DNA of 22,578 nucleotides. Source: a virus. Below, piece after piece: positions 2,611 to 22,578 of the stretch. The first letter of the stretch is position 1, and each line of letters opens with the position of its first letter. The notes beneath the pieces were generated by a model, which saw only the letters and a list, made by a program, of their open reading frames with translations, made no database searches and was not told the DNA's origin. The position numbers and the translations under genes were made by a program. Location: the IMG/VR virus record IMGVR_UViG_3300050116_000046, positions 1-22,578 of that record. One strand, written 5' to 3'.

Positions 2611-2883
2611 ATGACCGACCGGGACCGCCAGGAGTTCACATATGATGGAACCGTCGAGAGCGCCAAGCTCCTGATCGGTTTCATCTGGAACGGCGACTTC
2701 GATACGCTGGTGCCGAAGGAGTGCGGCGACCCCAGGATGGGCAACCAGGTCATCAACACCAACAGCGAGATCCTCACTATCAAGGCCGGCGACGTCGTGC
2801 AGCGGGAAGACTGGGGCGAGACGAACGAGGACTACAACGTCCCAAGATTTCGCTTCGGCATCATCCGCAGGCGTCTGCAATGA
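2611..2883 (+). CDS. Hypothetical protein, 90 aa
   Basis: I do not recognise this protein. It is mixed alpha/beta in character, acidic in the middle and ends in a basic FRFGIIRRRLQ. Its ATG is 6 nt after the previous stop and has only a weak ribosome site, suggesting coupling. Its stop overlaps the large-terminase start as ATGA (2880-2883), so it is probably translated together with the terminase. No motif supports a function. The position just ahead of the large terminase is suggestive of packaging but proves nothing. Confidence 0.7.
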   Translation: MTDRDRQEFTYDGTVESAKLLIGFIWNGDFDTLVPKECGDPRMGNQVINTNSEILTIKAGDVVQREDWGETNEDYNVPRFRFGIIRRRLQ

Positions 2884-5300
2884 GCACTCTCAACACCATC
2901 GACTATACGCCGGCACCGACCATTAATGAGTTTATCAAATCCTACAAGCCAGGGCATCTATTTTATGAGTGGATCGTTGGGCCTGTCGGGTGTCTTGCGC
3001 CGGAGACGCTTGTCCTCACTGAGTCAGGTCCTCGCGCCATCGCCGCAATAGATCGGCCAACGCGCGTTCTATCGTGGAACGCGACGTCATGTCGATACCA
3101 GCTTTCTTGGTGTGGTGGGTCGTTCCTGAAAGGAACGGACTATCTCTACCGAGTGACAATGCAGCGAGGAGAATTTGATGCAGCCGCCCAGCACCAGATA
3201 CTTTGCGCCGACGGTAAGTATCGACGAGTGTGCGACCTGCGGGCGGGTCAAAGCGTTCAAGTATGTTCTTCTTCCCAGCTTCCGACCATAGCGGAACACA
3301 CCCCGCAAGAGTCTCTTGGAGATGCTCCGCGTTGGTTGCGAAATGCCGTAGGTTATCTGGGGCGTTATGCAGATGCAGCCCGTCTTTATGGTCAACGACT
3401 TCTTCAGGAAGAAGGTAGCGGTTTAGCTTTCGCTCCATCACCAAGCGGTGTTCAAACATTAACTTCGTTTCACGACGGGTTCGTTGACGAGCGTAGGGAT
3501 GATCGGGCGGAGCTGTCACGATTACGTAGCCGTCCCGATCAATTCTCCGTCCGGACACAAATTGATGGTTCAGCGCTCCCAGCCCACCACCCTCTCGTCG
3601 GCGGGGCAGATCGAGACGCAACATCACCTTTCTCACAGATCGCGGGTTTTCTCCGAGGAGAGTTGCGATCTCGATGGATGATCGCAAGCCGTCGCATAAA
3701 GCAATTATTTTTTCGATCTCGAGACGCCGCATCTCATTACTCCGGAACCGACGGGTCAATACTACGAATCGAGCGTCGTGATGTCAAGCAGGAATTTTGG
3801 GACCTTCAGGTTTTAGACACACACAATTACGTCACGGTGGATGGTTGCGTGCATCACAACTCAGGCAAGACCACCGCGCTGTTTATGAAGCTGGTCTACA
3901 TGGCCATGTTGCAGCAGCCGAGTCCTGACGGCGTCCGGCGCACCAAGGCTGTCGTCGTGCGCAACACCGCGCCGCAGCTTAACGACACCACGCTTGCGTC
4001 ATGGTTCTACTGGTTCAAGCCAGGGCAGGCCGGCGACTGGCACGCGACCGACAAACGCTTCGTGCTGCGCTTCGGCGACGTCGAGTGCGAGGTGCTCTTC
4101 CGGCCACTCGATACGCCGCAGGACGTGGCGCGCGTGCTGTCGCTCGAAGTCACCTTCGTCATCATCGACGAGTTCGTGCAGATCCCTAAGGAGATTGTCG
4201 AGGCGCTCTCCGCACGTTGCGGACGCTACTTTCCCGACAAGGGCGGCAAGGGCGCGACCAACTGGGGCATGTGGGGGTCGAGCAATCCCGGCACCGAGGA
4301 CAACTGGTGGTTCGACCATCTGCACGATCAGCGGGTCGTGCGGCGCTGGGTGCCTGTGCTCGAAGATCCCGATGCGCGCGTCATGCAGCGCGCCATGGAG
4401 GCCGGCCGCCACGAGGACCCTGAGGGCACCAAGATCAACGAATGCTATTACAAGCAGCCCAGCGCCTTCGATGACGACGCGGAGAACTTGGAGAACTTGC
4501 CGCCGTATAAAGTCGGCGATCGGTCCTATTACAACGACGTCGTGAAAGGTAAATCGGATGACTGGATCAAGCAGTTCGTCGAGTGCGAGTGGGGCTATTC
4601 AATTGCAGGTAAGGCCGTCATCGCCGGATTCAAACCCCTCCGGCACATCTCGAAATCACCACTTCGCTACAACCATCATCTCCCGCTGGTGGCTGGCTTC
4701 GATCCCGGACTCGCCGGATCTGCTCTCGTGTTCGGGCAGCAGGACCTCCACGGACGACTACTCATCTTGGGAGAACTCGTGCAGGAGAACATGGGTTCGG
4801 AGCGAATTATTTCTGAACGTTTGAAGCCATTCATGCGGCGCGTCTTCCCGCAGTGCCAGAACCTGATTATCGCCTCCGACCCGGCCGGCAACAACCGCAG
4901 CGCCGGCAACGAGCAGGAGATCCTCCGGCCCTTCAAGGACAAGTATCAGGTCGTAACCGAGAGCAATAATCGGCTCGCGCTGCGCGTCGATTCGCTCGAC
5001 TACTTTTGCGGGTTCAGCCCAGCCACTGTCGACTCGGGGCTGCTGATCGACGAGCAGGCATGCCCTATCGTCATTCGTGCGCTCAAAGGGGGCTGGCGGT
5101 TCGCGATGGACACCAAGAAGGACCAGATCCGAGGCATCACCCCGGAGAAGAATGCATGGTCCCACCCCGGCGACGCCACTGGCTACCTTGCAAGATATTT
5201 CCGGCGTGAATCAGACCGAGAGTTGCGCTATGGCGCTGGAACGGCTAATAAGAGGTTCGTCCCGCCCCGTAAATGGGGTCCGGCCTACCATCAGGTCTGA
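2880..5300 (+). CDS. Terminase large subunit, intein-containing precursor
   Basis: This is the ATP-driven DNA-packaging motor and headful or site-specific nuclease. The precursor is 806 aa, and removing the intein (residues 38-327) leaves 516 aa, normal for the family. The P-loop is split by the intein: GPVG (34-37) joins SGKTT after splicing, giving GPVGSGKT. Walker B is FVIIDEF with D430 E431 in precursor numbering. The RNase H-like nuclease domain shows D608 in GFDPG, D667 in ASDPAG and D765 in HPGDATGY. The start overlaps the previous stop as ATGA, and the next gene, portal, begins two bases after the stop. Because the intein sits in the ATP-binding loop, the unspliced protein should be inactive, so packaging depends on protein splicing. 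Confidence 0.95.
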   Translation: MSTLNTIDYTPAPTINEFIKSYKPGHLFYEWIVGPVGCLAPETLVLTESGPRAIAAIDRPTRVLSWNATSCRYQLSWCGGSFLKGTDYLYRVTMQRGEFDAAAQHQILCADGKYRRVCDLRAGQSVQVCSSSQLPTIAEHTPQESLGDAPRWLRNAVGYLGRYADAARLYGQRLLQEEGSGLAFAPSPSGVQTLTSFHDGFVDERRDDRAELSRLRSRPDQFSVRTQIDGSALPAHHPLVGGADRDATSPFSQIAGFLRGELRSRWMIASRRIKQLFFRSRDAASHYSGTDGSILRIERRDVKQEFWDLQVLDTHNYVTVDGCVHHNSGKTTALFMKLVYMAMLQQPSPDGVRRTKAVVVRNTAPQLNDTTLASWFYWFKPGQAGDWHATDKRFVLRFGDVECEVLFRPLDTPQDVARVLSLEVTFVIIDEFVQIPKEIVEALSARCGRYFPDKGGKGATNWGMWGSSNPGTEDNWWFDHLHDQRVVRRWVPVLEDPDARVMQRAMEAGRHEDPEGTKINECYYKQPSAFDDDAENLENLPPYKVGDRSYYNDVVKGKSDDWIKQFVECEWGYSIAGKAVIAGFKPLRHISKSPLRYNHHLPLVAGFDPGLAGSALVFGQQDLHGRLLILGELVQENMGSERIISERLKPFMRRVFPQCQNLIIASDPAGNNRSAGNEQEILRPFKDKYQVVTESNNRLALRVDSLDYFCGFSPATVDSGLLIDEQACPIVIRALKGGWRFAMDTKKDQIRGITPEKNAWSHPGDATGYLARYFRRESDRELRYGAGTANKRFVPPRKWGPAYHQV
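3016..3732 (-). CDS. HNH homing endonuclease encoded antisense to the intein
   Basis: This is a 238-aa protein on the strand opposite the intein. Residues about 5-45 (EIEKIIALCDGLRSS ... SVRKVMLRLDLPRR) form a helix-turn-helix. There follow the typical GRRIDRDGYVIV strand, EHRLVMERKLNRYLLPEEVV (H95), DHKDG (H115) and N123/N127 before RHFATNAEHL, which together are a complete HNH_3-type nuclease core with intact catalytic and metal residues. The segment VPLWSEAGKKN near 146-156 is also usual for the family. ATG 3732 is preferred over TTG 3759: GGAG lies 7 nt upstream, and TTG 3759 falls inside the -10 of a strong promoter. The canonical domain ends near residue 161 (base 3250). The last ~75 residues are antisense to the intein's N-terminal splicing blocks and are probably read-through extension. 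Confidence 0.85.
   Translation of the reverse strand: MRRLEIEKIIALCDGLRSSIEIATLLGENPRSVRKVMLRLDLPRRREGGGLGALNHQFVSGRRIDRDGYVIVTAPPDHPYARQRTRRETKLMFEHRLVMERKLNRYLLPEEVVDHKDGLHLHNAPDNLRHFATNAEHLQETLAGCVPLWSEAGKKNILERFDPPAGRTLVDTYRRRKVSGAGRLHQILLAALSLGRDSPFLSGTTHHTKKAGIDMTSRSTIERALADLLRRWREDLTQ
3759..3787 (-). promoter_or_regulatory. Promoter for the antisense HNH gene
   Basis: On the minus strand a perfect TTGACA (3782-3787) is followed by 17 nt and TAGTAT (3759-3764). Transcription would begin around 3752, giving a leader of about 20 nt that contains the GGAG of the HNH gene (3740-3743). The element is embedded in intein codons just ahead of block F. It lets the endonuclease be made early by host RNA polymerase, independently of the rightward operon. 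Confidence 0.75.
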
Positions 5301-7725: not shown

Positions 7726-8220
7726 ATGAGCCACATCATTGATCTTCTTGGAAAACGATTCGGTCGATTGATTGTTGTGCATCAGGCTGCGTCTATGGAT
7801 GGCGGGGCTGCTGCATGGGGACGTGTCTGTGATTGCGGCGCATCTGTTGTTGTCAAGTCATATCGTTTGCGAGTTGGGAAGACTAGGTCGTGTGGGTGTT
7901 GGAGAGTAGATAACGCTCGTGTTCAATTCACCACGCACGGGATGAAGCGTACACGCACTTATCGAACATGGATGAGTATGAGCAATCGATGTAGGGATCC
8001 GAATGGCAAAAACTTCCATTACTATGGTGGGCGCGGCATCGCGGTTTGCGAACGTTGGCGAAAATTTGAGAACTTCCTAGCGGATATGGGAGAACGTCCA
8101 GATGGTCGGACGTTAGACCGCAGAGACAATGATCGCGGATACGAACCAGACAATTGTCGTTGGGCGACTCTTATCGAGCAACGACGTAACCAACGGCGGT
8201 ATGTTCCGCCCAGTAATTGA
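7726..8220 (+). CDS. Free-standing HNH-type homing endonuclease
   Basis: This 164-aa protein belongs to the common phage family that starts with LLGKRFGRLIVV. It then has a zinc-knuckle-like pair CDCG...SCGC (residues about 45-65), TYRTWMSMSNRC, YGGRGIAVCERWRKFENFL, DMGERPDGRTLDRRDND and GYEPDNCRWAT. The last elements carry the catalytic core. The family acts as an intron-less mobile nuclease that nicks or cleaves related phage DNA and spreads its own gene. Base composition is visibly less GC-rich than the portal and scaffold genes on either side, consistent with separate acquisition. Its ribosome site is weak. It is not of the same subfamily as the antisense HNH in the terminase intein. It interrupts the portal-scaffold pair without damaging either gene. 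Confidence 0.9.
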   Translation: MSHIIDLLGKRFGRLIVVHQAASMDGGAAAWGRVCDCGASVVVKSYRLRVGKTRSCGCWRVDNARVQFTTHGMKRTRTYRTWMSMSNRCRDPNGKNFHYYGGRGIAVCERWRKFENFLADMGERPDGRTLDRRDNDRGYEPDNCRWATLIEQRRNQRRYVPPSN

Positions 8221-13696: not shown

Positions 13697-16600
13697 GTGG
13701 CTTATGCTGATCCGACCACCGGGCTGCCGACGAATACACCTCCGTCGTGGCTGGCGAATCTGCCGACGATGCCTGCACCGGCTGCACCTCCTCAGGGGGC
13801 GACAGGCTTCTGGGGAAACCCGATTGTTTCCGGCGTAGCATCAGGCACCCACGAACTCCTCGGGAATGTTTACGGTCGTCTTCCGCAAGCTGTCGGCGCG
13901 GCGACTGGCATCCAGTCTCTGCAAGATCTCGGTCAACGCATCTCAGCAAGTCAAGATGCCGCTGCCGCCGCTGCGTCGCGCCCTGATCTTGAGGGCAGTC
14001 CCTTCAGCTCGTTTAGCGCTGCCGGCTATAATCTCGCCAAAGCGTTGCCTACGCTTGCGACCGCGATCGGCGGTGGCGAGGCGCTTGGTGGTCTCGGACT
14101 TTTGACCGGTGCTGGACGTCTTGCTCAGGCCGCGCGCTTTGGCGTTCCGATGCTGCCGTCCGCGATCGGCTCGAACGTGCAGGAGTCGACCGGCCCGACG
14201 TCGCAGAACATCACACAGAGTGAAGGTCTCAAGGCGATCGCTCTCGGCGTGCCCGAGGCCCTCGGACAAGGCTTTGTGCCTGGCGGCATCACTCAGATGT
14301 TTGAGAAGGGTATTGCAGGCAACTGGGCGAAGCGCGCGCTGATCGGCGGCGGCGCGATGGGCGCTTACGGCGCGGCTGCGAGCGGTGCCCAGACGGCTGT
14401 CATGGATGCGGCCTACCATCCTGAGCTGCCGTTCGTCGATCGCGCGCAGCACGTCGTCGACTCGGCCCTGGCTGGTGGTTTCCAAGGTGCGTTCTTCGGC
14501 GGTCTCACCGGTCTGGCGAGTCGTGTGAAGCCGACAGACGACACCGACGCTATCAAGGGTGCGGTTGACCAAGCATTGCAGATCCCTGGACAGGAAGCTC
14601 CAGCTGAGACTCCTCCGGCGCAGCCGGAGCTTCCTGCGCAGCTGGCAGCACCTCCAGACCAGGCGGCGCTGGCACCTCCTGAGAAGGTCGGTGCCACTCC
14701 TCTACCTGACAATCTTGCGACAGCGCCTAGCGACACGCTCAAGGCCGCGCACGATGCGATGGCGCAGCAGGACAATATGGATCAGTCTCAGGTTGGCCAG
14801 ATGATGGCCTTCCGTGAAGAGCTGGCCAAGCGCACGCAGCCCGGCCTCAAGCCCGGCGAGGGCAATCTGTTCACGCCTGAGGATGTCGCGTCGCGGCAGC
14901 CGCAGGTGGACGCTGTCAAGGCGTCGCTCGATCTGCCAGCCAAGGCGCAGGACACACCGTTCTTCAAGAACCTGAACGCGGCCGACGAGCCTGATCTCAT
15001 TAACGCGATCGACGCGCAGCTCAAGACCTATGACCGCGTGACCAAAGCGGATGCGACCCCTGATCGTCCGGCGCAGGCTGAGAAGAAGATCCCTGACTGG
15101 CTGGTGAAGATCGCCGACGATCGCGGCCTGCTCAACGATGGTAAGAAACCACCCGAGGTTCCTCCCGATGCATCGCCACTCTCGTGGAAGCTGGAAGATC
15201 TTGGCGTCGACAAGACGCAGGCTGAGAAGGTGCGCGATGCGCTCAGACCGGTGGGTGGTGAGGATCTTCGCAACGCCAACGCACGTGTGTTGAAGGTCAA
15301 TGACGACATCGACAAGTTCACCAAGCTGGATGCCTTGCATCAGGAAGCCGCCGCGCGCCTTACCGATGCTGTGACGCCGAAGGACCCCGAGACCGGCGAG
15401 CCGATTGCACAACCCGGCCGTGTCGAGCCGCAGCCGCGCGCCGCGCCCGAGGGTCTTGCGCCTGAGATCCAGAAGCGGTGGGACGATACTGATGCGCTCG
15501 TGCGAGGCAACAACTCGGACGAGATCAAGAACCAAGCTCTCGCGCATCAGCAGGCGTTGGAGAACGGTCTGCGTGGACGGGATAGTGTGACGAAGACGAG
15601 TCAGCTGAAGTTGCTGGCCGCCAAGGAGCGTTCGAGATATACGGACGATGACCGCAGCTGGAGTGACCCCAATGCCGATATACAGCGAAGCGCAGCGCCG
15701 GAAGCTGTCGACCCTGCTGCCACCGGAGCAGTTCCAGAAGTTGCAAGCGGAGACGCCGGTGGGACCGTTGCCGGACCACGTGGCGAAGCCACCACGCCCG
15801 AAGCTGCCGCACAACAGCGTGCCACGGAAACGCCTCTTCAACAGCTTGCTGGCGCGCCAGCGGTAGACCCGACGCTGATCCAGAAGCCTGTGACGGTCAA
15901 GCGCGAGCCAGTCGTGAAGAAGTCTGTGTTGAATCCTAAACAGGAAGCCCCGATCGCGACAGCGAAAATCAAGGCTGGTCCGGCGCTAGACTACGTCATG
16001 CTCAAAGAGGCCCATGATCAGGCAGCTCCCGGCCCCGAGAAGGATGCTCTGGCTAAGGCGCTCGTTCGGGGAGTGAGTGGTGACGTCGCGGATCGCACCG
16101 CTGTCAAGGATGCCCTAGCCAATCTCGCTCAGAAGCGGAAGAACTTCGGCACCCCTGCAGCCTCGAAGGCGAGCGATCTGATCGCCGCCGATGGGAAGGG
16201 CTGGTCGCAGAGCGCGGCCGATGAGGTGCGAGGTCATGTGGCTCATGAGGACAAAGATAACGCGCTCATTGCAGGAAAGTCCTTCTTCGGTCGAGACATG
16301 TATTCTCTCGTCAACCGCGCGACCAATGTCCGCACTATCGGAGACATCGGCACGGCCAAGGTCCCATGGTTAAATGATGCCGGTGTTGCGAAGTATCGCG
16401 CCATCGCGGATAAATCGCGCGCCGCCGACGCCTCTGCTCTCAAGACGAAGCCCGACGGCCCATTCAACGGTAAGGCAGGACAGGTCACGACATCGGTTGG
16501 TGTGAAGCCTCAGCTAGGGCAGCTCGCGCGCGAGTGGCTGCAAGGGGTCGGTCTTGGTCACCTGCGTGTGGCTCTTGTGCATGAGACCGACACACGTGGG

Positions 16601-19600
16601 GATACTGCGACTGAGCATGGCTTCAATGGTCCTTATAGCTCCGCGCGCACGGCCGGCAAGGATAGCCTCGAATATGGGCACATGCGTCCGTTTGGTCCCG
16701 ATATGAACGACGCCTACATTTACCTGCGCAGCGGCATGAGCGACGCTCAAACGATCCAGACCCTCGGTCACGAGGTCGGGCACATCATGGAACAGACGCT
16801 GTTCCGGAACTCAGCACCTGAGGTCAAGCAGGCTGTCATGGATGCGTATCAGGCGTGGTTGAAATCCACGACCGGAATGAAAGCGCAGGAGTTGATTCGA
16901 TCGACTCGCAACAGTGAGATGGTCAACAACATCTTCACCGAAGACGCGCCTCTCTCGGCGATGGATAAGGCCAGCCAGGACTACATCACCAGCTTCCCGG
17001 AGTGGTTCTCCGATCATGTCGGGCGTGCGCTTACGAACGACGAGCAGCCTCGGTCGCCCGTTCAGAAGTTCTTCGCATCTGTCGCTCAGGCGTGGAAGAC
17101 GCTGCTCGGCCATATCACCGGCAATCAGTATCTGCCCGACGAAGCTGTCGCAAAGTTCTTGGATCAGGCGCGCGCGGTCGGTCGTCAGGACCAGTGGGCG
17201 AACGTCATTGGCAACCGTTCTGCATTTGGTCGCATCCCTGGAGACGATGCAGCATCTTCCGCTCGCACTCCTATGGCGGCGGAACAAACTGTCAAGGATG
17301 GGATTGGAATCGCAACGACGATGGCGAGCCGTTTCATGGATCGCGTCTCTACGCTCGGCGGCAAGGTCTTCAAGGCGGCGCTGCCGTGGGAGCGCAATGA
17401 GTTCATGTTCCGTAATGCACGGGACGTCCTCAAGAGCGGCACGGACTATTACAACAAGTCTGAGATGCAGAACGTTCGAGCGCAGATGCTTGACAAGACG
17501 GACGCAGGATCGTCGCAAGAATATCGTGCGCTTCCGACGCCTATGCGCGAGGCCATCAATAGCATGGTTGCGAAGTTCCAGAATAACTGGCAGTTCGACT
17601 TCCGCAAAGACATCAAGGATTACGCTGACGACATCAAGAAGATGCCGGACCCGGCGCGCGCGACCAAGTTCTTCAAAGAAGGTCAGGCTCAGCTGCAAGC
17701 GCTGCGTCAGGTCGTGAAGGCGGATGGCACGAACGCCAGTCTCGTCCCTATCATGGAGAAGATGTTCGGGATGATGCAGACGTCTGGCCTTAAAACCAGC
17801 ATCTCGCACATGCATGACCTGGCCGATCAGTATTCCGAGAAGGGTATCAAGCTGTTCGGGGATCAATACGAGAACCCGCTTGAGACGTTCCGCAGGATGC
17901 CGACCCTGCATGACGACCCAGCTTCTGCTCATGAGTGGTTCCGTGGTCTCCATAATGCTATGATGAAGGCGCTAGAGGGCCGTGTTGCGGATGCGACGAC
18001 GCGCGCGAACGAGCTGATGGGCAAGGATGCTTCCCCGGCCAGTAAAGCCCAAGGGCAGAAGCTTCTTGATGATGTGCAGGACATCAGCAATACGTTGTCT
18101 GATGCCCATGACCGGCAGCTGCTCATCAACAAGGGAACCTACGCGCCCCTGCGTCGCGAGAACTACGACCACTTCGTATCCGCTAAGATCGCTCGCGGTG
18201 CCGACGGCATGGTCAAACCTGAGGCGATTGCGGCCATCCAGGCCAAGCTAGCGAGCGGCGAGTTCAAGAGCATCGGTCTGTCACACCATAGTGAGAGCGA
18301 CGTCCTCATGGCGAAGCTCCCGAGCCGCGAGTCCATGAACCGCCTCAACGCAGTGTTTCAGGAACTCGCGGATCAGGGTCATCTATCGGACAACAAAGCC
18401 GGCTACGCTGATGCGCCGCACACCATGGATAAGTTCGGCACTCCTTTCATGCAGCAGATGGTTGCTCGCAGCGACTCGATCGCCAAGAGCCTCAATTTGG
18501 ATATGAAACAAACGGAGGCCCTTAAGAAAAAGATGATCGCCGAGATGATGGACACTGTCGGTGAGCACTCGATGCTCGGCAGCGAACAGGAGCGCGACTA
18601 TACATCTGGCTTCGACACGGACATGGGAGCCGCTATGATGGCGCACGCCATGAACTCTAACCGAGCTGCGACCCGCGTCGCCTCGCGTGGTGAGATCGCT
18701 CGTGCGTCAAAGGCTATGCTCGATGAGGTGAACGCCCAAAAGAGCAGCTCAATGAAGCCCTCCGATCGGGAGAAGTCGCAGGATGTGGTGAACGAGTCCA
18801 TGCGTCGTCAGACCGAAGGACAGTGGCACGTCCCGAACGGCTTCGTCGATGCGACCACGTCGCTCATGCACACCGCGCTCGTCGGGTTCAACCCGGCCTA
18901 TACAGTCACTGTGCTGTCTCAGGTCGCGACGCTGCTGCACGGAGAGCTGACTCGGAAGTATGGTGCAGCGCAATCGGCGAAGATCATCGCTCAGGTAACA
19001 CCCGAAGCGCTTCGGATCATGCGCGCCGTCTGGAGCAGTTCGGATCGAACGAGCTTCGGCATGCGAGAGGCCGCGCTTCGCGCTGCCGGTAACATCTCCG
19101 AAAAAAGCATCAAGACGATGATGAGCATCGAGACCGCAGGCGGTTTCACCAGCTACACGCAGGCCATGAGCGAGCTTGGTGAGGCCAAAGGCAAGAACGC
19201 TACCTACCAGAAGTGGCGCAAGTATTCGAACCTGATGGGTATCATGGCCGAGCAGTTCCCGCGCATCATCGCGGCTCTGTCTGCTGGGGCCTTGCACGAC
19301 TCTGACGGCGGCCGTCGCGCCGGGACGACCCGTGACGACTACGCGATGCAGATGGTCAACGGCTCGCAGTTCAAATGGGGTCCTGGTGAGAACTCGCGCA
19401 TGCTAGGCAAGAAGGGTCTGTTCGGTCCGTTGACTCCGATCATGCTCGGCTTTGCGCAATATCAGACGAACATGATTCAGAAGCTCTACGAGGAGGTCCA
19501 CGAGGCTGCGACGAACATGCATGGCAACCGCGCCGAGTCAGGGCGCTTCCTTGCATCCCATCTTGCTGCCGTGGTGGCGATTTCCGGCACGTTGGGCTTG

Positions 19601-20422
19601 CCCGGCGCGCAGTTCGCTGCCGGTGCCTTCGACAAGCTCTATGCCAACCTCACCGGTCGCGACGACATGGACATCCAGGGTGAGTATCGCAGCTACCTCG
19701 CGCACACCTTCGGACCCGACATCGCCGACATGATCGCGAAGGGCGCTCCAAGGGGGCTCGGTGTCGATCTGTCGAAGCTCGGCGACGAGAACATCATCCC
19801 CGGCTCGCAGTTCATGCAGGACAAGCGCCGCTGGGAGGACGCCTCGCGTGACTGGTTCAAGTCGATGGCGGGCGCTGGCGGCAACCAGATGGCCAATATG
19901 GTCAACTCCTCACGCGACATCATGAACGGCGATTTCATGAAGGGCGCGATCGGCTTCCTGCCTGAGGGCATCAAAGGCCTCGCGGAGGCCACATACTATT
20001 CGCAGCACGGTTTCATCAACAAGGACGGCACCACGCTGCCAGTTGGCAACCCTAAGGCGCTCGACCTCGTTTTGGCAGCGCTCGGGTTCGACCCCGCACG
20101 CCTCGCGCAATACAACGAAGCCAACCGCATCGTCCAGGGCTTGCACGCGGAGCACGAGTATAATTCGCAAAACATCTCGCAGCATCTCATGAAGGCTCAG
20201 CAGACTGGAGACCAAGCCGGGCTCATGAAGTGGATGTCCGCAGCTGTGGATATGCAGATGCACCACCCCGGCACGTCCGGTCCGGCTGAGACCTTCGGCT
20301 CGGATCTCAACCAGCAGATGGAGGCAGGTCAGATGGCTCGCTTCCGCAACGCCCCGATCGGTGTGGGCCCACTCGATACGGCCGGCAACGCCGCGAGCTT
20401 CCTCACCCCCTCCGGGAGTTGA
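13697..20422 (+). CDS. Giant internal/ejection protein with zinc-metallopeptidase motif, 2241 aa
   Basis: At 6.7 kb this is by far the largest gene. Residues 1-110 are Pro/Ala-rich. About 110-285 hold Gly/Ala-rich hydrophobic segments (LPTLATAIGGGEALGGLGLL, ALIGGGAMGAYGAAASGAQT) that could insert in a membrane. About 290-800 are charged and low-complexity. A zincin motif, HEVGH (1025-1029), is followed by PEWFSDH with E1102 as a likely third ligand. A long helical region (about 1250-1800) follows, and the C-terminal third contains LFGPLTPIMLGFAQYQ (about 1908-1923), resembling the PLxRFG signature of giant phage proteins. No transglycosylase motif is visible. GTG 13697 has AAGGAAG six nt upstream. 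It probably travels in the head and is ejected with DNA. Whether the peptidase cleaves itself, cell-wall peptides or host proteins is unknown. Confidence 0.85.
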   Translation: MAYADPTTGLPTNTPPSWLANLPTMPAPAAPPQGATGFWGNPIVSGVASGTHELLGNVYGRLPQAVGAATGIQSLQDLGQRISASQDAAAAAASRPDLEGSPFSSFSAAGYNLAKALPTLATAIGGGEALGGLGLLTGAGRLAQAARFGVPMLPSAIGSNVQESTGPTSQNITQSEGLKAIALGVPEALGQGFVPGGITQMFEKGIAGNWAKRALIGGGAMGAYGAAASGAQTAVMDAAYHPELPFVDRAQHVVDSALAGGFQGAFFGGLTGLASRVKPTDDTDAIKGAVDQALQIPGQEAPAETPPAQPELPAQLAAPPDQAALAPPEKVGATPLPDNLATAPSDTLKAAHDAMAQQDNMDQSQVGQMMAFREELAKRTQPGLKPGEGNLFTPEDVASRQPQVDAVKASLDLPAKAQDTPFFKNLNAADEPDLINAIDAQLKTYDRVTKADATPDRPAQAEKKIPDWLVKIADDRGLLNDGKKPPEVPPDASPLSWKLEDLGVDKTQAEKVRDALRPVGGEDLRNANARVLKVNDDIDKFTKLDALHQEAAARLTDAVTPKDPETGEPIAQPGRVEPQPRAAPEGLAPEIQKRWDDTDALVRGNNSDEIKNQALAHQQALENGLRGRDSVTKTSQLKLLAAKERSRYTDDDRSWSDPNADIQRSAAPEAVDPAATGAVPEVASGDAGGTVAGPRGEATTPEAAAQQRATETPLQQLAGAPAVDPTLIQKPVTVKREPVVKKSVLNPKQEAPIATAKIKAGPALDYVMLKEAHDQAAPGPEKDALAKALVRGVSGDVADRTAVKDALANLAQKRKNFGTPAASKASDLIAADGKGWSQSAADEVRGHVAHEDKDNALIAGKSFFGRDMYSLVNRATNVRTIGDIGTAKVPWLNDAGVAKYRAIADKSRAADASALKTKPDGPFNGKAGQVTTSVGVKPQLGQLAREWLQGVGLGHLRVALVHETDTRGDTATEHGFNGPYSSARTAGKDSLEYGHMRPFGPDMNDAYIYLRSGMSDAQTIQTLGHEVGHIMEQTLFRNSAPEVKQAVMDAYQAWLKSTTGMKAQELIRSTRNSEMVNNIFTEDAPLSAMDKASQDYITSFPEWFSDHVGRALTNDEQPRSPVQKFFASVAQAWKTLLGHITGNQYLPDEAVAKFLDQARAVGRQDQWANVIGNRSAFGRIPGDDAASSARTPMAAEQTVKDGIGIATTMASRFMDRVSTLGGKVFKAALPWERNEFMFRNARDVLKSGTDYYNKSEMQNVRAQMLDKTDAGSSQEYRALPTPMREAINSMVAKFQNNWQFDFRKDIKDYADDIKKMPDPARATKFFKEGQAQLQALRQVVKADGTNASLVPIMEKMFGMMQTSGLKTSISHMHDLADQYSEKGIKLFGDQYENPLETFRRMPTLHDDPASAHEWFRGLHNAMMKALEGRVADATTRANELMGKDASPASKAQGQKLLDDVQDISNTLSDAHDRQLLINKGTYAPLRRENYDHFVSAKIARGADGMVKPEAIAAIQAKLASGEFKSIGLSHHSESDVLMAKLPSRESMNRLNAVFQELADQGHLSDNKAGYADAPHTMDKFGTPFMQQMVARSDSIAKSLNLDMKQTEALKKKMIAEMMDTVGEHSMLGSEQERDYTSGFDTDMGAAMMAHAMNSNRAATRVASRGEIARASKAMLDEVNAQKSSSMKPSDREKSQDVVNESMRRQTEGQWHVPNGFVDATTSLMHTALVGFNPAYTVTVLSQVATLLHGELTRKYGAAQSAKIIAQVTPEALRIMRAVWSSSDRTSFGMREAALRAAGNISEKSIKTMMSIETAGGFTSYTQAMSELGEAKGKNATYQKWRKYSNLMGIMAEQFPRIIAALSAGALHDSDGGRRAGTTRDDYAMQMVNGSQFKWGPGENSRMLGKKGLFGPLTPIMLGFAQYQTNMIQKLYEEVHEAATNMHGNRAESGRFLASHLAAVVAISGTLGLPGAQFAAGAFDKLYANLTGRDDMDIQGEYRSYLAHTFGPDIADMIAKGAPRGLGVDLSKLGDENIIPGSQFMQDKRRWEDASRDWFKSMAGAGGNQMANMVNSSRDIMNGDFMKGAIGFLPEGIKGLAEATYYSQHGFINKDGTTLPVGNPKALDLVLAALGFDPARLAQYNEANRIVQGLHAEHEYNSQNISQHLMKAQQTGDQAGLMKWMSAAVDMQMHHPGTSGPAETFGSDLNQQMEAGQMARFRNAPIGVGPLDTAGNAASFLTPSGS

Positions 20423-21365: not shown

Positions 21366-22578
21366 ATGGCCCGGAGCTATTCTGACATTTGGATGGCGAC
21401 CGGGCCAACAGGCCCGACAGGCACTCGCGGTCCTATAGGACCGGCTGGCGGCCCTACCGGACCCACCGGGGCTACCGGTGCTCCCTCATCCGTAACCGGC
21501 CCCACAGGCCCCTCCGGAGCGACAGGAAATGGACCAACAGGACCGACCGGAGTCAGTGGCCCCACAGGTAGCCAAGGCACGCCTGGAGGCGATGGCGGCG
21601 TTGGTCCGACTGGGCCAACTGGACCCACCGGGTCTGATGGCGCTGTTGGCGATCAGGGACCTACCGGACCTCAAGGAACGGATGGGCCGACTGGCCCTAC
21701 TGGTGACGGCGGCTCAGAGGGTCCCACTGGGCCAACCGGGCCAGGCGTTGGTGATCCCGGCCCCACCGGACCAACTGGCGCTGACGGGACCCAAGGATTA
21801 ACCGGCCCGACAGGCCCAACAGGAGCACAAGGTGATGGCGGGGATCAAGGACCCACAGGACCAACTGGACCTGGCGGAACTACAGGCGTTGAAGGTCCCA
21901 CAGGCCCAACAGGAGCAGGCCCTACGGGACCGACTGGCGCGGGCGGATCTACAGGCGCAGAGGGACCGACAGGACCTACGGGACTTGAAGGCCCGACTGG
22001 ATCGGACGGTAGCACTGGAGCAGGAGGCCCGACAGGACCTACAGGCCCGACGGGCACTGGCGGTAGCACTGGCGCTGGAGGTCCAACGGGCCCAACTGGA
22101 ACTGGCGGAACTACGGGCGCTGAAGGTCCCACAGGACCCACGGGTGCGGGTGGAAGCAGCGGCATCGAAGGCCCCACCGGCCCCACGGGAGCTGGACCCA
22201 CAGGACCTACTGGTGCTGGCGGCGGTTCGGGAGCAGAGGGACCGACCGGCCCCACAGGAGCAGGTGGGAGCGCAGGAGCTGAAGGACCTACGGGACCGAC
22301 TGGATCTGGTGGAGGCACAGGTGCGGGAGGTCCGACGGGTCCAACAGGCGTATCCGGTCCGACCGGACCCACTGGCCCGACGGGTCTAGCGAACGCAGCG
22401 CCGCTGGTCATTGCCAACGGTGTGGTCTTCGAGGTCGCAACAAACACTCAGGTTCTGACCGACACACCGGTCTACATCCAGGCGGGTGGTCAGCTTTACA
22501 CGCAGGGCACTGGCGTTCTTATCAACGAGGTGCCGGTCTTGTCTGGTTTCGTCGGTCCTACCGGCCCGGCAGGCCCCG
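21366..22578 (+). CDS. Collagen-like tail fibre or spike, 5' part
   Basis: The frame opens at ATG 21366 ([19 protein letters not shown]) and stays open to the window edge: 404 complete codons, C-terminus missing. Residues about 11-340 are Gly-X-Y triplets, with about 20 copies of GPTGPTG spaced by variable linkers such as GAGGSTGAE and GTGGTTGAE. From residue 341 a non-collagen segment of ~55 residues ([20 protein letters not shown], then [19 protein letters not shown]) interrupts, and GPTGPAGP resumes at the edge. Collagen-like repeats form triple-helical shafts in phage fibres. Thr-rich Y positions replace hydroxyproline. GAAGAAGG lies 13-20 nt upstream, somewhat far. ATG 21393 is an alternative without a ribosome site. 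The receptor-binding tip is expected downstream of this window. Confidence 0.88.

Follow-up and report, generated by a model that had tools for sequence, protein, structure and literature searches.

A phage terminase intein with a putative HNH homing endonuclease gene on its complementary strand

The window analysed is an IMG/VR virus record of 22,578 bases. It contains a terminase large subunit gene that is interrupted by an intein, and a putative homing endonuclease gene is located on the complementary strand of this intein (Table 1). Extein homologues of the window terminase are 53-70% identical and do not contain the antisense-nuclease intein. Elsewhere in the window, positions 7726-8220 (+) encode a second, free-standing HNH endonuclease (PHROG_374, E=5e-58) between a portal-like gene and the capsid region, positions 13697-20422 (+) encode a 2241-aa protein, and positions 21366-22577 (+) encode a tail fibre with collagen-like Gly-Pro-Thr repeats that extends past the end of the record.

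Table 1. Features of the terminase intein and of the antisense nuclease gene (window coordinates; the slash marks the insertion point)
Feature	Position	Strand	Description
Terminase large subunit gene	2880..5300	+	806 codons including the intein; exteins 516 aa; PHROG_979, E=9e-7
Intein	2991..3860	+	290 aa, Cys1 to Asn290, +1 Ser; insertion in P-loop GPVG/SGKT
N-terminal splicing (Hint) half, blocks A and B	2991..3269	+	residues 1-90, pLDDT 91-98
Sense-strand linker opposite helix-turn-helix and HNH core	3270..3737	+	stop-free, mostly predicted disordered
C-terminal splicing half, blocks F and G	3738..3860	+	pLDDT 89-96 from residue 251
HTH-HNH homing endonuclease gene (putative)	3016..3732	-	238 aa plus stop, own ATG
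Nuclease N-terminal helix-turn-helix	3616..3726	-	residues 3-39; helices 3-12, 19-26, 30-39
Nuclease HNH core	3307..3465	-	residues 90-142, DHKDG at 114-118; invariant residues
Nuclease helical C-terminal domain	3022..3282	-	residues 151-237; antisense to the N-terminal splicing half
-35 box TTGACA	3782..3787	-	predicted promoter, sigma-70-like
-10 box TAGTAT	3759..3764	-	predicted promoter, sigma-70-like
Shine-Dalgarno GGAG	3740..3743	-	7 nt 5' of ATG 3732
Putative operator TGACCCGTCGGTTCCGGAGTA, copy of the uninterrupted insertion site	3738..3758	-	12/21 matches to own site

The intein contains Cys1, the block B residue His68 and a C-terminal His-His-Asn290; Ser+1 and the P-loop residues GKTT come next. 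In 71 sequences, H68, H289 and N290 are invariant, C1 is nearly invariant and the +1 residue is Ser or Thr. The Pfam family Intein_splicing was matched by 12 of 12 members, the window's copy scoring under the curated cut-off. The Hint fold was recognized in a predicted structure: the AlphaFold model was matched by Foldseek to the Ssp DnaB mini-intein (E=3e-7) and also to the RecA, DnaE and gp41-1 inteins. The pLDDT of the sense linker falls below 50 at residues 149-218 and 239-249. Neither a nuclease nor any constraint was detected in the sense frame of the intein middle, in line with the first-pass annotation, which had described an intein without a sense-strand endonuclease; the HNH domain is antisense. 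The Hint halves are encoded by one open reading frame with no stop in 83 sequences, and not by separate genes as in split inteins or fractured genes.

For the minus-strand open reading frame 3016-3759, a match to PHROG_10730 (HNH endonuclease, E=3e-51) covers residues 12-241 of 247. The HNH gene was thus correctly placed antisense inside the terminase intein by the first-pass annotation, and the same pairing is found at 91 of 91 loci. Its assignment to the HNH_3 type holds for the relatives, 13 of 13 of which match this Pfam family when aligned, and only in part for the window nuclease, whose match is under the cut-off (E=0.006). The proposed helix-turn-helix and DHKDG elements are both present. 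HTH family matches are weak and occur in several members, and the HNH motif is complete: an alignment of 72 proteins shows no variation at H95, H115, D117, H122, N123, N127 and H137. The AF2 model of the nuclease has a mean pLDDT of 91, and its closest PDB fold is I-HmuI (Foldseek E=0.15, probability 0.99). The C-terminal domain is composed of helices with a pLDDT mostly above 90 past residue 170. The two structure-job inputs contained no rows from GenBank phage records. The nuclease had been described as confined between blocks B and F, which had to be abandoned: the 3' end of its gene lies opposite intein codon 9, and its C-terminal domain extends beneath the N-terminal splicing half. The relative frame is as first described, with codon position 1 opposite position 1 and positions 2 and 3 opposite each other.

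The most likely start of the nuclease gene, judged from the sequence, is ATG 3732 and not TTG 3759. The ribosome site proposed earlier was retained as GGAG at 3743-3740, and the start was corrected to this ATG. Shine-Dalgarno-like motifs precede the nuclease start in 52 of 62 relatives, compared with 12% of control windows. A promoter-like site, TTGACA-17-TAGTAT, is located 5' of the ATG at 3787-3759 (-). In the 62 relatives, the mean best sigma-70 score of this region is 9.27 of 12, compared with 6.72 for control positions within the gene; 24 relatives score at least 10 and three are perfect. The conserved sigma-70-like promoter and Shine-Dalgarno motif, with a copy of the insertion site between them, are new findings of this analysis.

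Scans of IMG/VR with the HNH and with the intein, together with GenBank phages, yielded 91 distinct inteins among the matches listed. A nuclease gene or its deletion remnant is antisense at one offset in all 91, and 83 have a full-length nuclease with both strands open, as had been claimed for the window. The HNH profile match ends 46 nt from the first base of the intein, give or take a few bases. In an additional scan, an antisense intein was present at 75 of 76 HNH loci, many of them on contigs already collected. Wherever the flanks are readable, the insertion point is a terminase-type P-loop. Cultured carriers include eight Pectobacterium and Dickeya phages and Pseudoalteromonas phage PHS3, and prophage copies were found in Enterobacter cloacae DSM 26481, an Acinetobacter and E. 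coli MEI003. The prophage copies were retrieved with a clade alignment; a genome scan using the window's own HNH returned no relatives. The sequences are mostly metagenomic and mutually related, and inteins without a nuclease are under-sampled because the search patterns were partly taken from the dual-coding stretch.

Several variants were observed. Longer inteins of 336-358 aa occur at seven loci (L083, L087, L090, L099, L173, L181 and L264), and the nucleases of L083, L087 and L264 carry an additional, weak HTH-like segment N-terminally. Very distant P-loop inteins from a Methylomonas MAG (L267) and from L268 have an antisense HNH without the C-terminal domain. Their layout, in which the N-terminal splicing half is not overlapped, is possibly the older arrangement. 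Annotation of the carriers is uneven. The terminase of E. coli MEI003 (L271) is annotated without its N-terminus and that of PHS3 (L026) with a start that is too late, both errors resulting from an HNH gene call on the opposite strand. The annotation of Pectobacterium phage Sabo (L025) lists the terminase as a hypothetical protein and omits the HNH.

The copy of the uninterrupted insertion site is about 21 nt long and is located between the -10 box and the start codon of the nuclease gene. A fixed-register test was used since a 26-nt search for the copy across the whole intein was noisy. Compared with each phage's own joined extein site, the copy matches at a mean of 10.2 of 21 positions against a background of 5.33, and its register scores highest among all antisense positions tested. 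A free-register search gave a small excess (11.2 vs 10.7). Among 47 non-redundant GPxG members, the motif is invariant at positions 4, 5, 8 and 11 and nearly invariant at position 10, as in the target. Variation is found at positions 3, 6, 9 and 12, which correspond to the wobble positions of the target codons. These variable sites coincide with first positions of sense codons, so the pattern is not explained by either coding frame. Phages with GGAG, AGYG and GGFG sites have the copies GGNGGNGCNGG, GCTGGATATGG and GGNGGNTTCGG, respectively, and the copy in E. coli MEI003 equals its own phage site at 14 of 16 bases (TATGTTGCAGGTTTCG vs TATGTTGCTGGTTTTG). The copy is absent from the usual register in some members (L025, L082 and L091). 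In L025, L027 and L179, a site-like copy (CCTCACCCGAATCC or similar) is seemingly located on the other strand, between the -35 and -10 boxes.

Covariation between operator and extein site is strong in plain counts, which include few independent events and are mostly shared by descent. On the tree, P/G changes once and V against other residues about five times. In tree-aware tests, a mean of 2.3 of 3 supported independent pairs were concordant and almost none discordant, which was not significant. The covariation is graded as suggestive because the free-register excess is small and the tree-aware tests are not significant. The nuclease promoter and start include a homing-site-like sequence of the kind expected for an I-TevI-type autorepressor, with a weaker signal in the free-register test. 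By analogy with I-TevI, repression of the nuclease by itself through this copy is favoured by a small margin over its absence.

Several observations indicate that the element moves. An intact GPVG-SGKT junction is present in most of the intein-less terminases with 53-70% identity (L183, L184 and others). An allele empty at the exact codon was found in E. coli ET729, and its joined flanks are 93% identical to those of the Enterobacter locus L264. The inteins of L264 and E. coli MEI003 are 92% identical, and 900 nt of the downstream terminase are 70% identical. At L074, the terminase clusters with that of the window and the nuclease groups with those of other terminase types (97% SH-aLRT). In the mini-inteins L175 (143 aa), L162, L163 and L178, the HTH is gone together with some or all of the HNH core, and the sense frame is still open, as a homing cycle predicts. 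Homing is supported because empty alleles, a 92% identical intein in 70% identical terminases and mini-inteins all occur; transfer between terminases and the empty alleles place the nuclease gene in an element that moves between host-gene alleles. At L189:145-1056 (+), a sibling terminase (57% identical) is interrupted at the same P-loop codon by a sense intein that is unrelated and looks conventional, and at least two intein types thus invade the P-loop site.

The HNH protein could instead be a packaging factor acting with the terminase, as is the case next to HK97-like terminases, and not a homing enzyme. HNH packaging components are already known (Kala et al., as cited in PMC10448857), and the gene is always located in a terminase-type P-loop gene. 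However, close sibling terminases are entirely without the HNH, the mini-inteins have lost it, and its promoter includes a copy of the insertion site of the intein, which makes a packaging role improbable.

For the selection analysis, base differences in 21 independent close pairs were counted according to what they change in each of the two frames. In codons 1-15 and 245-289, the sense omega is 0.25 and 0.27, respectively, and sense third positions are the fastest; in the C-terminal splicing half, sense position 3 is fast and position 2 slow. Codons 1-15 and about 245-290 are constrained as intein only, because sense third positions vary most. In codons 93-240, omega is 0.27 for the antisense frame and 1.12 for the sense frame, and the fastest positions are sense second positions, which are third positions of the nuclease; this stretch is therefore constrained as nuclease only. 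Codons 16-92 are slow at all positions, with omega of 0.46 (sense) and 0.42 (antisense), so both proteins are constrained there. The earlier statement that neither frame is free to drift thus holds for codons 16-92 and fails for the regions in which a single protein is constrained. Sense stops are absent from the middle region in all 83 sequences, compared with 4.84 expected per sequence from shuffling synonymous codons of the nuclease, and antisense stops number 0 in the overlap and 233 in the C-terminal flank. The AlphaFold model is consistent with this map, with predicted pLDDT of about 90-98 in the Hint halves and below 50 in much of the middle.

The sense intein could be a non-splicing, stop-free passenger opposite a real and active nuclease, the terminase being made in some other way. 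This would suit a sense middle without protein-level constraint and an E. coli terminase that PGAP called incomplete, but purifying selection acts on block A and on the C-terminal block (omega about 0.25), Cys1, His68, His289, Asn290 and the +1 Ser/Thr are kept, and stops are absent from all sequences; we consider it very unlikely. Least likely of all is a decaying antisense relic kept open through constraint on the sense frame, since, despite some deletion derivatives, selection in the middle region acts on the antisense protein and not on the sense protein, and the promoter, the Shine-Dalgarno motif and all HNH residues are conserved. A chance mirror open reading frame was ruled out by homology, by the same-offset pairing in 91/91 loci and by antisense purifying selection.

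The locus is very probably a mobile intein with a separate HTH-HNH homing endonuclease encoded on the complementary strand, and self-repression of this nuclease is slightly more likely than not. A mobile intein with a separate nuclease had been proposed by the first-pass annotation and is still the best reading: the homologous inteins have no antisense stops, keep their HNH residues (both of which it had named as points on which the proposal could fail) and show purifying selection in each of the two overlapping frames, for which it had suggested a test. The terminase would be translated straight through the intein, and the two Hint halves would fold around the disordered linker and then splice out. 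The nuclease would be expressed from its own minus-strand promoter and would recognize the P-loop codons of an uninvaded terminase gene, approximately GGNCCNGTNGG/TCNGGNAAR in the clade of the window. Cleavage at the uninvaded P-loop would be followed by repair that copies the intein in. The nuclease probably binds the site copy between the -10 box and the start codon, which would limit its own synthesis.

On balance, we lean towards a widespread class of mobile inteins in phages, with the splicing domain encoded opposite the C-terminal domain of a separate, self-repressing homing endonuclease. Decay of the nuclease by point mutation would then be hindered because the splicing domain has to be kept, and a built-in copy of the target would regulate the nuclease. 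In this layout, the nuclease of a mobile intein would be uncoupled from translation of the host protein, which is impossible for in-frame intein nucleases. The family is also a large natural set of dual-strand-coding DNA, with two conserved folded domains both specified by codons 16-92. With it one can test whether homing endonucleases, which usually decay, do so more slowly when they overlap an essential splicing domain, and whether inteins, like T4 introns, evolved autorepression through a copy of the target.

The first-pass annotation treated this layout as possibly undescribed, and the literature searched, which mostly omits subscription papers, contained no account of an intein with its nuclease on the opposite strand. 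Inteins in the ATPase domain of TerL are known (PMC5050341). As in classical inteins with an in-frame endonuclease, including those of TerL, the window intein has a Hint domain, an insertion in a conserved ATPase motif, a nuclease between the Hint halves and empty alleles. Unlike in those inteins, the nuclease is a separate protein of the complementary strand, and its gene also lies under the N-terminal splicing half. The fractured genes of Dassa et al. 2009 reportedly consist of split inteins with a free-standing endonuclease between the Hint halves. The endonuclease of the window is likewise separate and between Hint halves, whereas the intein reading frame is unbroken and is overlapped by the nuclease gene in antisense.

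An out-of-frame HNH is located inside an insertion of the phage methylase of ShiLan, and according to its authors the domain is without an intein splicing domain (PMC11855218). In ShiLan, the HNH match and the methylase share one strand, and over 85 aa the HNH core has 44% identity with one member of the antisense-intein family. Both systems have an HNH in another frame within an open, in-frame insertion of a phage gene, but the window element is not of the ShiLan type, as its HNH is antisense and a Hint fold is present. Group I introns with antisense homing endonuclease genes are known, for example the His-Cys box open reading frames in Porphyra SSU rDNA (PMC2585584). The nuclease is on the complementary strand of its splicing element in both cases; the introns are RNA and place no protein demand on the other strand, whereas the window element codes for protein on both.

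In T4 I-TevI, a homing-site-like operator overlaps the start region of the nuclease gene with a 15/20 nt match, and repression has been proven (PMC2988022). The window element also has a homing-site-like sequence at the start of its nuclease gene, but the nuclease family and the splicing element are different and the operator is putative. The nuclease shares an HNH core joined to a DNA-binding domain with I-HmuI and the phage HNH endonucleases of PHROG_10730, and differs from them in having an N-terminal HTH and a helical C-terminal domain opposite the Hint domain.
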